The position numbers and the translations under genes are program-made. Below are positions 22,380-32,684 of a stretch of 32,846 nucleotides of DNA, one piece after another. This DNA is from Cyclobacteriaceae bacterium (GTDB lineage: Bacteria > Bacteroidota > Bacteroidia > Cytophagales > Cyclobacteriaceae): assembly GCA_018224645.1 (NCBI GenBank), contig JAGTVG010000365.1, positions 1-32,846 on the forward strand, in the 5' to 3' direction. Under the pieces are notes generated by a model that searched no databases, was not told where the DNA came from, and saw nothing but the letters and a program-made list of their open reading frames with translations. Numbering within the stretch: the first letter of the stretch is position 1; every line of letters begins with the position of its first letter.

Positions 22380-25076
22380 TCACAAAGTCAGGTCCACTGC
22401 CGAGCCTATCACCTCCGTCCTCAGGCCGGGATCATTGTCCAGCATAATCACCACGACATAGGGCATATCCGGATCAATTATCTTTAGTTTAAACTGCACT
22501 TCCCCCGGACCATTACCGGAAAGATCTGCCGATTTTACATCCTCATCAGCCGCAGCATTGAAGGTTCGCAAAAGTACTTCATGCTTGCCTTTCCCATTAA
22601 GGGTAACCAGAACCGTCACTTCCTGACCCGACCGTTCGGATCCTGCCCGGAACTGTATCTCTTCCTCATCCTTCTCCGCAACGGCAGACGGCTCAGCGAA
22701 GGAAGTATAGACCGACAACGCACCCAGGAAACGGTTAACTGGTTCGACCCAGATTTCCTTGTGGGTGGCATTGTTGGTGGCCGACCAGTACGGTTGGTCA
22801 CCGGACAGGCAATCCATGCCTACCGGAAGGGAGCCGACAATATTTTTCAGGCAGTAGGCAAAATGCGGGGCAAAATCATAGCCCAAGCCATACATCAGGC
22901 TTTGCCCGAACGGATTGGCCCCAAGCACCCATTCCATCTGTTTCTGAACAAGCCCGATCCCATCCGCGTCATTCCGCAGCCGGGCAGCTTCGGCCAGTGC
23001 CCATGCACTTGACATCTGAATATTTGTATTCCCATGGAAAAGGTTGTCCCGGTAAATCGGGAATGTCCGGAGTACATATTCCTCGTTCAGTTTTGTACTT
23101 TCCTCAAATTGCCTCATCATATCCGTCCGCCGGTCTTCTTCCTTCACGGAGAGGATCTCAGATCTTTTCCATACCGAATTGGGCAGATGTCCGTAAGGCT
23201 CAGCGATCCTGCTGCCCCGTTTCATGAAGAATTCACTGTGCAGTGCGGCGGCACTATACCATTGCATCCAGTCTTCATGACCAGGAAATTCCCGGCAAAG
23301 CATGGTCAGGGCAATCAGCGGGGCTTCTTCGAAAGCGGCATGGTGATTGTGGATTACATGGTTTCGTTCCGTACTGGTATAGAAATAACCTGTGATGGGT
23401 ATGCCGTCCACAAATCGCTGTTCCTGGCACTGGATTAATAGCCGGCCGAAACGGATGGCCTGATCAATGTATTTCTCATCCCCAGTCATCCGGCTCAGCT
23501 GGATCGAGGATGTAGCCCCCCAGGCGGCCTCGCGGTAATCAGCGCGGTCCCGGGAATTCATCGAATCGACAGCTGCCTGCCAGTCCTCCAGGGAAGCAAT
23601 GCGTGACTGTTCAGCAAGTTCCGGATGAGAATTTTTCAGCATAACGGCAGCCTGGCACTGAACAGCCGCTGTGAGGAAGTTTTCCCAGGGAATGTTCCGT
23701 GCGGGAGAAACCACATCATCGATGGTCCCCACTTCATTATCGGTATAGATCCGCATGACACTGAAGCTCATATGATATCCATCCCCGAAACGGGTCTTCA
23801 GGAGATACTGCAATCCCCAGGCGATTTCCTCCCGTATCCGTCCGGCCAATTCCGCCTGAATCCCTGCCTGCTCCAGATTTTCCAGGTTCAGCATCATGGC
23901 ATAGGCAGACATAGCGGTCCGCCAGGAACCCTGGGATAGATCACCTGCATCATGCCAGCCACCATTGATGATCTTTTTTGTTTCGCCATAAAATCCCTGC
24001 CAGTCCTTGTGACATTCCAGGTGAATTCCAGGCACAGCATATCCGCAACGCTGACAGAAGAAAAAATTAACCGCTTTAAACAGTGGCTGAACCCAGACCT
24101 GGTCCTCAATCGGGAAAGGATTGGATTCAAGGTTACCGGTCCGCAGACGGAATTCACCGGTTCCTTCATAACCTGAAAAATCAAGCATCCGGAACATACC
24201 CTGCTCATTCCGGACAACCTGTACCTCGCCATTAAAGACCGCATTCCCGTCCCTGCCGATCAACTGGAAACTTCCCCCTGCACCCTCACCCACCATGGCT
24301 ATTTTCTGCTCTGACGGGCGGTAACCCGCATGGTTGAAGGCAAATTTTTCGGGTGCCACCTCCCATCCTTCGTACTGGTCACCGTCCACGAGCTGGATCT
24401 CGAGCTGGTCAATATCGTAAGTGACAATGCCCTCTTCTTCCGGGTGATGGCCTGTAAGCATCTGGTTGATCCTGAAAGCAGTGACCTTATCCCGTTTCAA
24501 ATGGTGTATCTCGTACATGACATGGTTCCACTGGCCTGGCTTCAGGTCATGAACGAAATGTGATTTACCGGGATAGGCAGCGTTATATATGGAACCTTCA
24601 CAGTCAAATGAAAGATAAATACAATAGGTGGGCATATCGGCAGGATGAACATATATCCAGAAAGAGATCCGGTTGAAGTCCGACCAGTTCTGTGGTTCTT
24701 TGAATGGAAGTTCCACGAATGACCGGCCGCCCTGGGTTCCATTGAAGGAATCCCATTCACTTCGGTTCTGCCGGTAATGCTCTTCATCGCGAAGGGAAGT
24801 ACGGAAACGCAGGGATTGACCGCCATCCCGTGCCCTGTCGGTGATATAACTCATTTCCCCGATGCCGGTCACCTGCCAGCCGGCAGGCTGTTCCATGTCA
24901 TCAATCAGACGGGTCTGATGAACAGTTTTTTTCTCCCAGGCTGACATCAGAGCATTTGCCTCAGGGACATCAAGCGGAAATGCTGCCAGAGCAACCTCCT
25001 TTTGAGTTTCTTTAACCGGGGAGGAGCATGAGAAAACAAGGATCATGCTCAGGATATAAAGGATAAAATTCTTCAT
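22380..25076 (-). CDS. Secreted glycoside hydrolase family 9 lipoprotein, paralogous to the 429-3338 product
   Basis: 898 aa; lipobox 'MILVFSCSSPVK'; 'FAFNHAGYRPSEQKIAMV' (CelD_N-like), 'NGGWHDAGDLSQGSWRTAMSAYAMM', 'VLGANPFGQSLMYGLGYDFAPHF', 'HKEIWVEPVNRFLGAL'. Confidence 0.9.
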   Translation of the reverse strand: MKNFILYILSMILVFSCSSPVKETQKEVALAAFPLDVPEANALMSAWEKKTVHQTRLIDDMEQPAGWQVTGIGEMSYITDRARDGGQSLRFRTSLRDEEHYRQNRSEWDSFNGTQGGRSFVELPFKEPQNWSDFNRISFWIYVHPADMPTYCIYLSFDCEGSIYNAAYPGKSHFVHDLKPGQWNHVMYEIHHLKRDKVTAFRINQMLTGHHPEEEGIVTYDIDQLEIQLVDGDQYEGWEVAPEKFAFNHAGYRPSEQKIAMVGEGAGGSFQLIGRDGNAVFNGEVQVVRNEQGMFRMLDFSGYEGTGEFRLRTGNLESNPFPIEDQVWVQPLFKAVNFFFCQRCGYAVPGIHLECHKDWQGFYGETKKIINGGWHDAGDLSQGSWRTAMSAYAMMLNLENLEQAGIQAELAGRIREEIAWGLQYLLKTRFGDGYHMSFSVMRIYTDNEVGTIDDVVSPARNIPWENFLTAAVQCQAAVMLKNSHPELAEQSRIASLEDWQAAVDSMNSRDRADYREAAWGATSSIQLSRMTGDEKYIDQAIRFGRLLIQCQEQRFVDGIPITGYFYTSTERNHVIHNHHAAFEEAPLIALTMLCREFPGHEDWMQWYSAAALHSEFFMKRGSRIAEPYGHLPNSVWKRSEILSVKEEDRRTDMMRQFEESTKLNEEYVLRTFPIYRDNLFHGNTNIQMSSAWALAEAARLRNDADGIGLVQKQMEWVLGANPFGQSLMYGLGYDFAPHFAYCLKNIVGSLPVGMDCLSGDQPYWSATNNATHKEIWVEPVNRFLGALSVYTSFAEPSAVAEKDEEEIQFRAGSERSGQEVTVLVTLNGKGKHEVLLRTFNAAADEDVKSADLSGNGPGEVQFKLKIIDPDMPYVVVIMLDNDPGLRTEVIGSAVDLTL

Positions 25077-25118
25077 GATAAAAAATGTTGTAAGTTAAAA
25101 AATGATTGTATTTAACGA

Positions 25119-25161
25119 AAAATAGAGATGACATCCCTCAAAGGGATGTCATCTCTATTTT
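25119..25161 (-). terminator. Intrinsic (probably bidirectional) terminator after the GH5 gene
   Basis: AAAATAGAGATGACATCCCT-CAA-AGGGATGTCATCTCTATTTT: perfect 20-bp inverted repeat with A/T ends, 4 bp from the GH5 stop codon. Confidence 0.9.
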
Positions 25162-25165
25162 CTTT

Positions 25166-26260
25166 CTAAGGTGGCAGAATCGCATCCTTCCGGTGGTTGA
25201 TCCACCTCCTGTTTTCCTGGTCAAAAACACCCATATTTGACCCCATCAGATCCCACATGGACCAGCTCATCCCATGCTTTTTCATCTGCTCCACCACAAA
25301 TGTCAGCCATTTTACGGCCGATTCCTGATCGGCCTCATGGATCACGCCGAATTCACCAAGGAACAGCGGCCGGTTATGTTTTTCCCCCCAATCGGCCGCT
25401 TTTTGAAAATCGTCTTCAACAGCCTTTTTTTCTTCCGGTGTTCCCCTCCAGGTCACACCGGTGGGATTCCCGCTGACTCCCTGGTGCGTGAATTTATGGG
25501 GACTGTAATAATGAACCTCCACAATGATGTTACGGTCCTTTTCGGGCAGTTTCAACTCCTCAAGGGCACTGAAGCCGTTCCAATTGCCCGGGCCGATGAC
25601 CAGGGTCCGGTCCGGATTGGACTCCCTGACGATCCGGTATGCATCCAGCATGAGGTAATTCCAGAGATATGGTGTCAGGTTGTTATTGGGTTCATTCAGC
25701 AAACCAAAATACACGTTATCAGGAAAATCTTTATAATGTTCGGCCATCTGCACCCAGGATGCGAGAAACATCTCCCTCAAACCCATGGGGTCTGCTCCCA
25801 TCACCCGGTACTGGTGGTTGTCGATGATCACGGCAAAGCCCCTGTCAAGTGCTTCCATAACGGTCCAGTCAAGCCTTTCAAAAAAAACACCGGAGATCTG
25901 ATAAGGAGGCTTCACGGCAAGAAGCAGATCAACGCCATATCCATGGGCTTCATTCCTGGTAAGGGCATACTGCTGATCCCTGTTCATATGCAGGAAAGGC
26001 CGGGTATTGATGCGGATCCCGGTCAGACCGGCTTCCTTCATGATATCCATCTCTTTTCTTTCCCAATCCTTGTCCCAGTTTTCCCATTTATAAAGGATGT
26101 TACCGATATTCCCTCCCCTGCCAAGCTGTTCATTCTGCCTGAAGGCATGCATCGGATCAGTGACCTGGCCTGTAGAAATATTGATGAAGATGGTCAGGAT
26201 CATCAGACTGGCAGTTACATACAAGAAAGCTTTTGTTATTATTTTTTTACCTGGTTTCAT
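25166..26260 (-). CDS. Secreted glycoside hydrolase family 5 (cellulase/endoglucanase-like)
   Basis: 364 aa; 'ERKEMDIMKEAGLTGIRINTRPF', 'VYFGLLNEPNNNLTP' (acid/base Glu), 'VEVHYYSPHKFTHQG', 'PLFLGEFGVIHEAD' (nucleophile Glu). Confidence 0.9.
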   Translation of the reverse strand: MKPGKKIITKAFLYVTASLMILTIFINISTGQVTDPMHAFRQNEQLGRGGNIGNILYKWENWDKDWERKEMDIMKEAGLTGIRINTRPFLHMNRDQQYALTRNEAHGYGVDLLLAVKPPYQISGVFFERLDWTVMEALDRGFAVIIDNHQYRVMGADPMGLREMFLASWVQMAEHYKDFPDNVYFGLLNEPNNNLTPYLWNYLMLDAYRIVRESNPDRTLVIGPGNWNGFSALEELKLPEKDRNIIVEVHYYSPHKFTHQGVSGNPTGVTWRGTPEEKKAVEDDFQKAADWGEKHNRPLFLGEFGVIHEADQESAVKWLTFVVEQMKKHGMSWSMWDLMGSNMGVFDQENRRWINHRKDAILPP

Positions 26261-27621: not shown

Positions 27622-28554
27622 TTAGTGTCCCCTCCTTTCGGAGGACCGGGCATCCTCAATGGTTTCCCCGCTGTTTAACTTGCCATTGATCGCATCTTCA
27701 CGGAAGGGTAAACTGGCGTCATAATACTTCCTGTTAATGTCAACATCGGAAATCAGCATTCCTGGTGTATTAACCGGAAGTTTATTTTGTATGAGCCCAT
27801 CGGGGGTAATAAAATGGCACGGCCAACTTTCAGCAACTGAAGAATTTGTCAGTGACATGTAGAAATAATTGGTGGCCGCCCTGGCCTGGGCGGTGACCGG
27901 CATGACCAGGGGATGAATGCTGTCCTTTCCCTGCCGGGCATTGTGAAAGGACTGGAAGATCACATCCGTTCCTCTTTCCCTGTATTCCCGGTATAATTCC
28001 GGGAATCGCACATCATAACAGATCAGTAATCCGCAATTGACCCCATTCAGGATGAAATTCACAAAATGATCCCCCGGTGAAAAAAAATCCAGGTCTCCTG
28101 TGGTGCAGAACCGTTTATCATACCGGTCAATGATTTTCCCTTCCGAATCAATCACATATAGACTGTTATGAGGTTTATTCGAACCGTTGAGGGGGTGTAG
28201 GGATCCAAGGATCACCCAGATCCCCAATTCCTCCGACAGGGCCCGTACTGAATCGGTCGCTTGCCTTAGCGCCTGCCAATCGAAATTTTCAAGCGATTCC
28301 ATGTCGGTTCCCGGGTATCCTGTAAGGGCGCATTCCGGAAAATGTATGATATCTGCCTGTTTCAGGTTGGCTTCGATCATCTGTTCCCTGATCCAGTTAA
28401 GGTTAGCGCCGATATCAGAGGATACAGGAAACTGGCAGGATGCGATTCTGATTGTACCTTTTTCCGGATCCTGTGCCAATGCAGCCGGCCGGATCAGGAC
28501 CGAATAGACAAAAATGATAAGGACGGTGACAGAAAGATATCTAACAGGTCTCAT
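27622..28554 (-). CDS. Exported carbon-nitrogen hydrolase (nitrilase superfamily)
   Basis: 310 aa with signal peptide; Glu-Lys-Cys triad regions 'IHFPECALTGYPG', 'IDRYDKRFCTTGDLDFFSPGD', 'NCGLLICYDVRFPELYREYRERG'. Confidence 0.9.
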   Translation of the reverse strand: MRPVRYLSVTVLIIFVYSVLIRPAALAQDPEKGTIRIASCQFPVSSDIGANLNWIREQMIEANLKQADIIHFPECALTGYPGTDMESLENFDWQALRQATDSVRALSEELGIWVILGSLHPLNGSNKPHNSLYVIDSEGKIIDRYDKRFCTTGDLDFFSPGDHFVNFILNGVNCGLLICYDVRFPELYREYRERGTDVIFQSFHNARQGKDSIHPLVMPVTAQARAATNYFYMSLTNSSVAESWPCHFITPDGLIQNKLPVNTPGMLISDVDINRKYYDASLPFREDAINGKLNSGETIEDARSSERRGH

Positions 28555-28618: not shown

Positions 28619-30208
28619 TCATGCATACCATTGCCGTTCCCTTTTAAAACCATTATTCAGCAGCGAATAAACGATATTGGCATTGGGGATTACCTGGAAA
28701 TCGAACATCCCTACACAGATGAAGTCAGCCCCGCTCTCAAAAGCATGTCTGAATCCTTCTTCCGGATCGATTGCACCTGCGGCAAGCACCTTATAAGCGA
28801 TCCAGGGCACATTGGAATTCCTGAAAAAAGCTGACACTTCATCAGCCGAAGGACACCAGAGATTATCATGGTATTGGTTGCGGTCAAGGCTGCTGTCATC
28901 GATATCGTGCATGTATTCCTTCCGGTTCTCGAACGGATGAGCGGACCAGTACCGGTCATGATGAAAGGTCTTCATGAAAAAGTCAACCTCTATGCCATGA
29001 TTCATGCAGGCCATGGGAACCTGAATGGCATGTCCTGCCGTACCGGCGATCAGGCCCTGACTTCTGATATATTCCACTGGTCCGGCAAGTTGTTCGAGCC
29101 TGTTTTCCGCTACCAGCCTGTCGGCAATACCGCCCATGACAAAGGCCCCGACAGCACCTTCATCGATCGCCATCTTTACATTGGTATAATCCTCTTCAAT
29201 GGGATATGTCTGGGCAAGCCATTTGATTTTCCCACCTCTTTTCCGGTATTTATTAAGGATCCGTATGGTTTGTTCATCCGTGCGCATGATGGTTGTGTTT
29301 ATACCGCAAGCCTCATACAACCACAGCGTCTCGATCACTTTTTCATCGGTGAAGTAGTTCTTAATCATGTTCGAAACATAGATCAGATCGCGTGCATGGG
29401 CAAAACCGGCCACCAGGTTCCCGCCAGGGATGATACGGCTCATTTCAACGTGTTTGATTTTTCCCGAAGGAACTTTTCCCTTCAGATCCCTCATGTCCCT
29501 GCTTTTTGCACTCAGAACAGTGGCTGTCGTTGTGGCATCCACAGTAACCATGTTTTTTTCCTCAAAACTCAGCCAGCCATATTTCCGTGCCATGCCAAAA
29601 AGGGCAAAACCCAGCACAGGAATGGATGCAATGTCCTTGATCAGTTCTCTCCGGGAATTTTTAAATTCCGGCGGGACATGTTTGTTTTCTTGCTTCGGGA
29701 ATAACTTTTCTTGCCGGTGTTCGATCACCTGTTTAACCAGCCTGTCGATCCCCCAGATATACCTCCTGTCCTGGAATAAAATTAACAGCAGTATACCTGC
29801 TTCGATCAGGTTGAGGTTTAGAAAGAACCGGGACCCGGCAAAAGGCAGGCTGGCCTCGATGAACGGAGGATTTGCAATATAATACAAGAGGAGAAGACCG
29901 ATACCTGTAATACTGGCTACCCTGGTGAACATCCCGAGAAAAAGCCCCAGGCCGATCAGAATCAATCCCCAGATATTTAAAATATCGACAATGGTCAACC
30001 AGGACGGATGCGCGATGATCCAGTGAAAAAATCCCGATAAGAGCCATTTGGATTCCATCAGGTAGGCATAACTCGACCAGTTTTCCATCGCCGTTTTTGA
30101 TACACCTTCATATAGAAAATGCCAGCCGATCATTATCCGTAAAACATTCAAAACGATTCCAGGCGGAAGTATCGGATTTTCAGCTTTCATGGTAAAAAAG
30201 TTTTTCAA
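28619..30208 (-). CDS. DoxX-like membrane domain fused to an alpha/beta-barrel-like domain
   Basis: 529 aa; N-terminal 'LRIMIGWHFLYEGVSK...LNIWGLILIGLGLFLGMFTRVASITGIGLLLLYYIANPPF' DoxX-like; internal 'NSRRELIKDIASIPVLGFALFG'; C-terminal aldolase-like 'VKMAIDEGAVGAFVMGGIADRLV...VPWIAYKVLAAGAIDPEEGFRHAFESGADFICVGMFDFQV'. Confidence 0.8.
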   Translation of the reverse strand: MKNFFTMKAENPILPPGIVLNVLRIMIGWHFLYEGVSKTAMENWSSYAYLMESKWLLSGFFHWIIAHPSWLTIVDILNIWGLILIGLGLFLGMFTRVASITGIGLLLLYYIANPPFIEASLPFAGSRFFLNLNLIEAGILLLILFQDRRYIWGIDRLVKQVIEHRQEKLFPKQENKHVPPEFKNSRRELIKDIASIPVLGFALFGMARKYGWLSFEEKNMVTVDATTTATVLSAKSRDMRDLKGKVPSGKIKHVEMSRIIPGGNLVAGFAHARDLIYVSNMIKNYFTDEKVIETLWLYEACGINTTIMRTDEQTIRILNKYRKRGGKIKWLAQTYPIEEDYTNVKMAIDEGAVGAFVMGGIADRLVAENRLEQLAGPVEYIRSQGLIAGTAGHAIQVPMACMNHGIEVDFFMKTFHHDRYWSAHPFENRKEYMHDIDDSSLDRNQYHDNLWCPSADEVSAFFRNSNVPWIAYKVLAAGAIDPEEGFRHAFESGADFICVGMFDFQVIPNANIVYSLLNNGFKRERQWYA

Positions 30209-30949: not shown

Positions 30950-31738
30950 TTATAACATACCCAGCATCCTTTTTGCATTTCCTGAACGCATGAGTTCCTT
31001 ATCTTCCTCGCTGGCTTCATCAGTACGCAGGGATTCAATGCGCAGAAGGCCGGTCAGATAATCCAGGATCGGGGAATGGGTTCCGAAGGCGAATTTATTT
31101 TTCCCAAAGATCCCTATTAATTCCCCGAAGGCATTCATCGACCTGCCTGAAGTATCGAATAAAACATCCGCACTACGGATCAATTCCGTTTCTTCCTCAT
31201 TCAACCGGGTACTGTTAGCCACATTAAGGATAAGATACTTCGCATCCGGAACCTCCCGGATGATTGGTACAATATCTTCAAGATCCCACTCCCGTTCGAG
31301 GTCCATCCAGGAACGCTGCCGGCTGTCAACAATACGGGTTGAAAATGCCACCGGAATATCATTCTCCCGCGCCATGTTTACAAGCTCGATACACGAAGGA
31401 TTGGTCAGATCATAATCATGATAAAGCGGATACAGCCTGATGCCGCGCATGCCCATCGTGTGAACACAGGTATCGAAATCGCCCTTCCAGCCTGCATAAA
31501 TGGGATTGATGATGGCGAAGGGAATAAAACGGTCGCGAAACCTCTGATCTGAGCTTATTTCGGCATACAATTCCTCATTTGCAGATTGCGTGTTTTTATA
31601 AAAAATCCCGTTCAGGTTGCTCACGATTGAAAGACCGACCCCGAATTTATCCATCCGTTCCAGGAGGGAGGAACAATGGTTGTAATGCAACTGTTTGAAG
31701 GGCCAATGACCGACGTATGCATTGATATCAACCAACAT
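30950..31738 (-). CDS. Amidohydrolase_2-like protein lacking the canonical HxH
   Basis: 262 aa; 'MLVDINAYVGHWPFKQLHYN', 'GMRGIRLYPLYHDYDLTNPSCIELVNMARENDIPVAF', 'KFAFGTHSPILDYLTGLLRIESL'; overlaps the upstream gene by 11 bp. Confidence 0.75.
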   Translation of the reverse strand: MLVDINAYVGHWPFKQLHYNHCSSLLERMDKFGVGLSIVSNLNGIFYKNTQSANEELYAEISSDQRFRDRFIPFAIINPIYAGWKGDFDTCVHTMGMRGIRLYPLYHDYDLTNPSCIELVNMARENDIPVAFSTRIVDSRQRSWMDLEREWDLEDIVPIIREVPDAKYLILNVANSTRLNEEETELIRSADVLFDTSGRSMNAFGELIGIFGKNKFAFGTHSPILDYLTGLLRIESLRTDEASEEDKELMRSGNAKRMLGML

Positions 31739-32684
31739 GATGTCCCCCTTTCTTTAGAATATTATTATAATTTTCAAAGAAGATCTTTTTCTTCTGGGAT
31801 TCGGTGAGATTGGCGCACAGGATCTTCCCGACACCCTGGTAATAAGAGCCGTCCGAACCATAAAAAAGCCTGTCCTCCCCGAGCTGCCTGACCGCAAAAT
31901 CGATCATATTCTCTTCGTTGTTACTGCCGGAGGTATCCACATAAATATTCCGATGATCTTTAAACAGTTTACATTCATATTCCCAGTCGGCTCCGCCCCC
32001 GATATGTGCGAATTGGAACATTCCCTCCGGATACCGTTTGGCTGCATCCACAAAATCTTCCGGGATCGATGTATTGGGTGCCATCCCTGCATCATATTTC
32101 ATCCGGTAACCTCCCACACCGAGCTGGCAGAACCCATGCATCAGCATGATCATGTTCAGGCCGATGAATTTTTCGATGATGGGGAAATACAGGGGATCAT
32201 TGATCGTCACCTGGGTATAAGCCTTGTAACCGGCCATTCCTTCACCGGCACACCGGCCGATCTCTTCCAGGGATTCCTTCTGATAGACAGGATTGAGGGT
32301 CATAAACCCGATGATCCTGTCCGGGAACTGTTTCATTGCCTGGAGGACCAGGTTATTGGATCTTTTCACCTCTTCGTGATCCTCAGGTTCATTCCCTGAA
32401 AAGTTGGTAATGGGCCTTGATACGCATAATTTATCAATTCCCAGCCGGTCGGCGAAATCGATCTGTTTTTCGAAATCGTCCGGATCAAAATCCACATGGG
32501 CATGGGCATCGATTTTACGGTATTTTTTAACTTCATCCATGATGCCATAGGATGAATGTTCAATCTTTTTCCCGGAAGAACATCCGGCGAGATTGGCGGA
32601 GGCAAATATTCCCACCGTCGATAGCGCGCTGTGCCTGATAAATTTCCTGCGATTGATTTTCTGTCTCATAATGTACCTATTCAT
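31728..32684 (-). CDS. Exported amidohydrolase (Amidohydro_2-like), Tat/lipoprotein signal
   Basis: 318 aa; 'NRRKFIRHSALSTVGIFASANLAGC'; 'KIDAHAHVDFDPDDF' (HxH), 'QFAHIGGGADWEYECKLF', 'NIYVDTSGSNNEENMIDFAVRQLGEDRLFYGSDG'. Confidence 0.85.
   Translation of the reverse strand: MNRYIMRQKINRRKFIRHSALSTVGIFASANLAGCSSGKKIEHSSYGIMDEVKKYRKIDAHAHVDFDPDDFEKQIDFADRLGIDKLCVSRPITNFSGNEPEDHEEVKRSNNLVLQAMKQFPDRIIGFMTLNPVYQKESLEEIGRCAGEGMAGYKAYTQVTINDPLYFPIIEKFIGLNMIMLMHGFCQLGVGGYRMKYDAGMAPNTSIPEDFVDAAKRYPEGMFQFAHIGGGADWEYECKLFKDHRNIYVDTSGSNNEENMIDFAVRQLGEDRLFYGSDGSYYQGVGKILCANLTESQKKKIFFENYNNILKKGGHHVG

Follow-up and report, generated by a model that had tools for sequence, protein, structure and literature searches.

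Proteins of the DoxX family are widespread and their function is poorly known, a role in redox and quinone chemistry, as in thiosulfate:quinone oxidoreductase, being the one ascribed to them. Signals of the Tat export system follow the consensus SRRxFLK. In the class of membrane proteins that employ both Sec and Tat, a twin-arginine (RR) pair stands ahead of a last transmembrane helix of low hydrophobicity, after which positive charges follow (Tooke et al., 2017, PMC5449189); DoxX is not mentioned in the text of this paper, which defined the class. Another described group with which a comparison can be made is that of the extracytosolic proteins flavinylated by ApbE (NqrC, RnfG, DUF2271, DUF3570; PMC8238504, PMC12052999), for which the flavinylation motif is D-x-x-[S/T]-G-A-[S/T] (PMC12052999).

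The gene analyzed here lies on the minus strand of the window, i.e., of the whole 32,846-nucleotide stretch of DNA from a Cyclobacteriaceae bacterium, within an open frame at 28619..30208 that encodes 529 amino acids when counted from a TTG at position 30208. An alternative ATG at 30190, which gives a protein of 523 amino acids, is the likelier start. In the 523-residue numbering the protein is composed of a DoxX domain (residues ~1-160), an RR segment (180-207) and a barrel domain (~241-523), and the features are listed in Table 1. The preliminary description had proposed just such a DoxX-RR-barrel architecture; Pfam, alignment and predicted structure bear out the frame and the layout, apart from the label given to the barrel.

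Table 1. Coordinates of the DoxX-RR-barrel gene features and of neighbouring genes (locus numbers with the prefix L denote retrieved loci).
Feature	Location	Strand	Basis or remark
DoxX membrane domain	29711..30190	-	residues 1-160 of 523-aa protein; PF07681, model helices, loop charges
Cytoplasmic linker from DoxX to RR, positively charged, variable	29654..29710	-	alignment; K/R counts
RRELIK twin-arginine motif and weakly hydrophobic helix (Tat-type signal anchor, presumed TM5)	29570..29653	-	conservation, split relatives, insertion energy
Flavinylation-like heptapeptide DATTTAT, presumed extracytoplasmic	29519..29539	-	conserved island in 10 DoxX fusions
AKR-like (beta/alpha)8 barrel, presumed periplasmic catalytic domain	28622..29470	-	AlphaFold, Foldseek, hhalign
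Carbon-nitrogen hydrolase, exported-looking, downstream neighbour	27622..28554	-	PF00795, 105.8 bits
PF06439 gene	L018:3344-4822		
PF06439 gene	L017:5197-5916		
PF06439 gene	L029:6987-7841		annotated DUF1080

Five barrel genes are present in the source genome, four of them DoxX fusions and one (L015, 360 aa) devoid of DoxX. Together with homologues from L009 and L010 (genome or MAG contigs), from L022, L024 and L026 (one genome of the same genus) and from L034 (another family within the same order), they make 11 members, i.e., 10 DoxX fusions, all with one layout and mutually mostly 40-47% identical, and L015. Beyond these members the barrel was not found among several hundred sampled Bacteroidota genomes, so that within this phylum it was found only in the genus of the source, one genome of another family in the order and two MAG contigs, and the family is therefore rare within sampled Bacteroidota. 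It was not found in viral contigs.

Two AlphaFold models (mostly pLDDT 80-95) predict that the C-terminal domain consists of an N-terminal hairpin followed by the eight strands of a (beta/alpha)8 barrel. The best Foldseek matches are all to PA4992, a putative aldo-keto reductase (AKR; E from 2e-7, TMt 0.71-0.75), and then to other AKRs, with the remaining TIM barrels (IGPS, designed enzymes, homocitrate synthase) ranked below them; alignment by hhalign to AKRs of the source genome is colinear across the domain (probability 64-84%). The domain had earlier been called aldolase-like, an identity that was rejected since the fold search prefers AKRs. PF00248 is matched by none of the 11 members at E <= 0.1, and comparison with Pfam, NCBIfam and PDB sequences placed the barrel in no family, giving only weak IMPDH-type matches in the stretch 'AAGAI...GADFI.VG'. 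Because the Asp-Tyr-Lys-His tetrad of AKRs is apparently not kept, in a profile alignment to same-genome AKRs that is distant and leaves the exact columns uncertain, we use the label AKR-like: as modelled, the barrel has the fold of the PA4992/aldo-keto reductase superfamily but is not an AKR proper, and unlike that superfamily it is membrane-anchored and presumably exported. The invariant polar residues N258, H265, R267, D268, H387, D403, K407, H410, K467 and D489 likely mark the putative active site. Several ordinary AKRs of the source genome were also seen with Tat-type N-terminal signals (L075-L077, L080, L081; e.g., RREFLKK, RRKFIKT), and export of AKR-fold enzymes seems to be common in this genome, as far as such signals tell.

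The internal twin-arginine stretch, KNSRRELIKDIASIPVLGFALFG (29594-29662, minus strand), is far from being poorly conserved. The pattern RR-xxx-K-xxxxx-P-xx-G, that is both arginines, K185, P191 and G194 (523-aa numbering), is fixed in 11/11 homologues whereas adjacent positions vary. Separate genes, for which relatives were searched, were found in 27 loci by a full-length profile search in the same order and, for the Parabacteroides pair, by a separate search. In these split relatives the DoxX gene ends at a stop codon and is followed, 2-93 bp further in the 26 pairs measured by script (one was judged by eye), by a Gfo/Idh/MocA-type gene, into which the profile match often continues. The partner starts with the same segment, in the form SRRDLLK-xxx-IPVLG, as in the N-terminus MATDKKLFAAFSRRDLLKSLAGVPILGAVWAAG; RR is present in all 26 measured partners, and the four checked by Pfam are all NAD-binding oxidoreductases of the Gfo/Idh/MocA type. 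The unit of DoxX and Tat-signal Gfo/Idh/MocA gene is recurrent in Bacteroidota (L035-L060, L029:7959-10129; e.g., Parabacteroides distasonis NZ_OY725768.1), and no description of it was found in the papers searched. It resembles the fusion in its homologous DoxX and in the conserved segment that opens the enzyme, and differs from it in being two genes, in the unrelated Rossmann-type enzyme and in having no flavinylation-like island. Since the RR segment is N-terminal in the split partners, the Tat-like segment that the preliminary description had noticed in the middle of the protein would be an ordinary N-terminal Tat-type signal anchor made internal through gene fusion. Which enzyme follows this segment depends on whether the arrangement is split or fused, and the enzyme partner is thus exchangeable.

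The N-terminal part, previously described as a four-helix DoxX-like domain, has a PF07681 match of 26.3 bits (cut-off 23.6) over residues 21-108 of the 529-aa frame. Four helices are predicted at the expected positions in a model of low confidence, and the pattern of loop charges fits an N-in/C-in orientation; insertion energies, calculated with the parameters of a published scale and serving for comparison only, clearly favour insertion of two to three helices out of the four. Across the 36 fused and split DoxX proteins, whose mean identity is 39%, 19 residues are invariant, including R18, G22, W23, H24, G29, K32, P108 and E130. Between DoxX and the RR segment, the region 144-183 contains 5-9 K/R in the nine fusions counted.

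Just past the last membrane helix, in the otherwise variable stretch that leads to the barrel, all 10 DoxX fusions share an island of the form D/E/N-A/G-x-S/T-x-A-S/T (DATTTAT in the window protein, DAVTSAT in L014, NAVSGAT in L013, DALSGAT in L026, DGKSSAT in L034). As in ApbE-flavinylated extracytosolic proteins, the heptapeptide stands by a membrane helix, on the presumed extracytoplasmic side, and ApbE is encoded in the genome (three genes, PF02424). Unlike those proteins, the fusions have no FMN-binding domain and most of them lack the G at position 5; the strict ApbE motif occurs in one of the ten (L026), and DATTTAT, with T at this position, fails it. The loose pattern is expected in 0.03-0.4% per sequence when each linker is shuffled, and it occurs 28 times in the 71,089 residues of other open frames at the retrieved loci; the stronger argument is the aligned conservation among mostly 40-47% identical proteins. 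No heptapeptide of this kind was found near the anchor in any of the split Gfo/Idh/MocA partners. Covalent flavin somewhere in the DoxX-barrel family seems to us doubtful, though worth considering, and it is less probable still for the window protein itself. What is new here is that the island is common to all 10 fusions and missing along with DoxX in one paralogue. This paralogue, L015, keeps the RR segment and the barrel, with no DoxX in the ~290 bases that remain upstream on its contig. In the tree it groups with the fused L024 (support 100/98), from which it follows that a single lineage lost both DoxX and the island; this joint loss is one event and its meaning is tentative.

The explanation that we find best is that the protein is a membrane oxidoreductase with five helices, inserted by two routes, in which DoxX serves as the redox partner; taken as a whole, this explanation has in our judgement an even chance of being right. 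The four DoxX helices would be inserted by Sec/YidC, after which the chain would be freed on the cytoplasmic side and the barrel would fold there (with cofactor). The Tat system would then recognize the internal RR and move the barrel across, the fifth helix remaining as an anchor. DoxX would act as the membrane redox partner linking the barrel reaction to the quinone pool, and covalent FMN on the short linker might be a relay in at least some members. Redox coupling is plausible on indirect grounds, in view of the DoxX family, the oxidoreductase partners in the split pairs and the flavinylation-like island; electron exchange through DoxX itself we put slightly below even. Points against the explanation are the AKR tetrad, which is apparently not kept, the T at position 5 of the window heptapeptide and the slightly negative insertion energy of the last helix in L016. 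The retention of the barrel without DoxX in L015 speaks against it too, and is also what favours an explanation with the same topology in which DoxX is only a tether or an assembly or stability factor, the barrel being an ordinary Tat-anchored enzyme without electron exchange at the membrane. The occurrence of DoxX proteins in several contexts (eight matches in the source genome) points the same way. We nevertheless consider this explanation fairly unlikely, as a passive anchor should need fewer invariant residues than the 19 found, H24 and E130 among them, the partners in the split relatives are oxidoreductases, and L015 lacks the island together with DoxX.

Dual translocation, which the preliminary description had raised, is the most likely route judging from the sequence. 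The features of known dual Sec/Tat proteins (PMC5449189) appear to be present: a predicted even number of helices, RR immediately ahead of one final helix of low hydrophobicity, and positive charges past that helix followed by a globular domain. The difference is that the membrane part is here DoxX and the globular part an AKR-like barrel. The last helix, modelled with low confidence by AlphaFold, has a positive predicted insertion energy in 8/9 fusions (1.1-3.3 kcal/mol, on the same comparative scale; -0.1 in L016) and is followed by 2-5 K/R in nine fusions. TatC is encoded in the source genome. The invariant RR, the four predicted helices upstream, the weak last helix with its charges and the split relatives together argue for dual translocation, and the barrel is probably extracytoplasmic, with use of Tat for its export being rather likely. 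If the fifth helix were instead inserted by Sec alone, RR would serve only positive-inside orientation and the barrel would be exported unfolded; predicted energies of 1-2 kcal/mol do not forbid this, and the value in L016 is even slightly negative. However, RR is strict (never KR, RK or KK) and is accompanied by K four residues on in the 11 members and the 26 split partners, a pattern that matches the Tat consensus, and with TatC present we regard Sec-only insertion as improbable. Still less probable is a cytoplasmic barrel, the stretch behind RR failing to span the membrane: the segment is indeed weakly hydrophobic and modelled with low confidence, but in the split relatives it lies near the start codon and looks like an N-terminal signal, it is not evident what purpose a strictly kept RR would have in the cytoplasm, and no homologue indicated a cytoplasmic second domain. 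An assembly artefact or a chance joining of two genes, conceivable in a fragmented assembly (561 contigs), was rejected as practically negligible, given that nine more fusions, all of full length, come from other contigs and from four further genomes. The fusion is thus a real modular arrangement and not an accident, with relatives that have DoxX beside a different enzyme.

Gfo/Idh/MocA and AKR-like enzymes normally use soluble nicotinamide cofactors. One may ask how such enzymes, once exported, shed or gain electrons outside the cytoplasm. DoxX is either neighbouring or fused, always with the twin-arginine segment in between, which offers a testable answer, i.e., DoxX as the membrane redox partner. 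Extended further, DoxX might serve in Bacteroidota as a plug-in module of general use that passes electrons between the quinone pool and oxidoreductases exported by Tat, working in a two-gene pair with Gfo/Idh/MocA enzymes or in a fusion with the AKR-like barrel and a linker FMN relay; we think this generalization unlikely. Were it true, the exported enzyme could do without nicotinamide diffusing freely outside the cytoplasm. The proposed mechanism, if true, would also lengthen by one family the short list of proteins dependent on Sec as well as Tat, and would provide a concrete assay for DoxX.

As to the genomic surroundings, the DoxX-barrel gene is followed, 64 bases further and on the same strand, by the carbon-nitrogen hydrolase gene. 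Orthologues of the hydrolase lie directly downstream of the fusion at L022:2476-3447 (65% identity) and nearby at L009:2512-3564 (69%), and the hydrolase appears to be an associated neighbour of the fusion in the clade of the window only. Genes for PF06439 3-keto-disaccharide hydrolases adjoin two other members of the five barrel paralogues, and one such gene lies beside the DoxX pair of Parabacteroides; the source genome has 20 matches to the domain. A link to 3-keto-glycoside metabolism is no more than suggestive, the cases being too few; the barrel substrate is perhaps a sugar or glycoside, and a sugar-oxidizing role of the barrel is a guess. Upstream of the DoxX-barrel gene, two amidohydrolase genes (PF04909; 30950-31738 and 31728-32684, minus strand) overlap, and the upstream one of them (31728-32684) has a Tat-type lipoprotein-like N-terminus, RRKFIRHSALSTVGIFASANLAGC. 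On the other side lies the gene of a prenyltransferase-type alpha-alpha toroid protein (PF00432; 26354-27436, minus strand), whose N-terminus also carries RR; genes for GH5 and GH9 glycoside hydrolases (22380-26260) belong to the same cluster.
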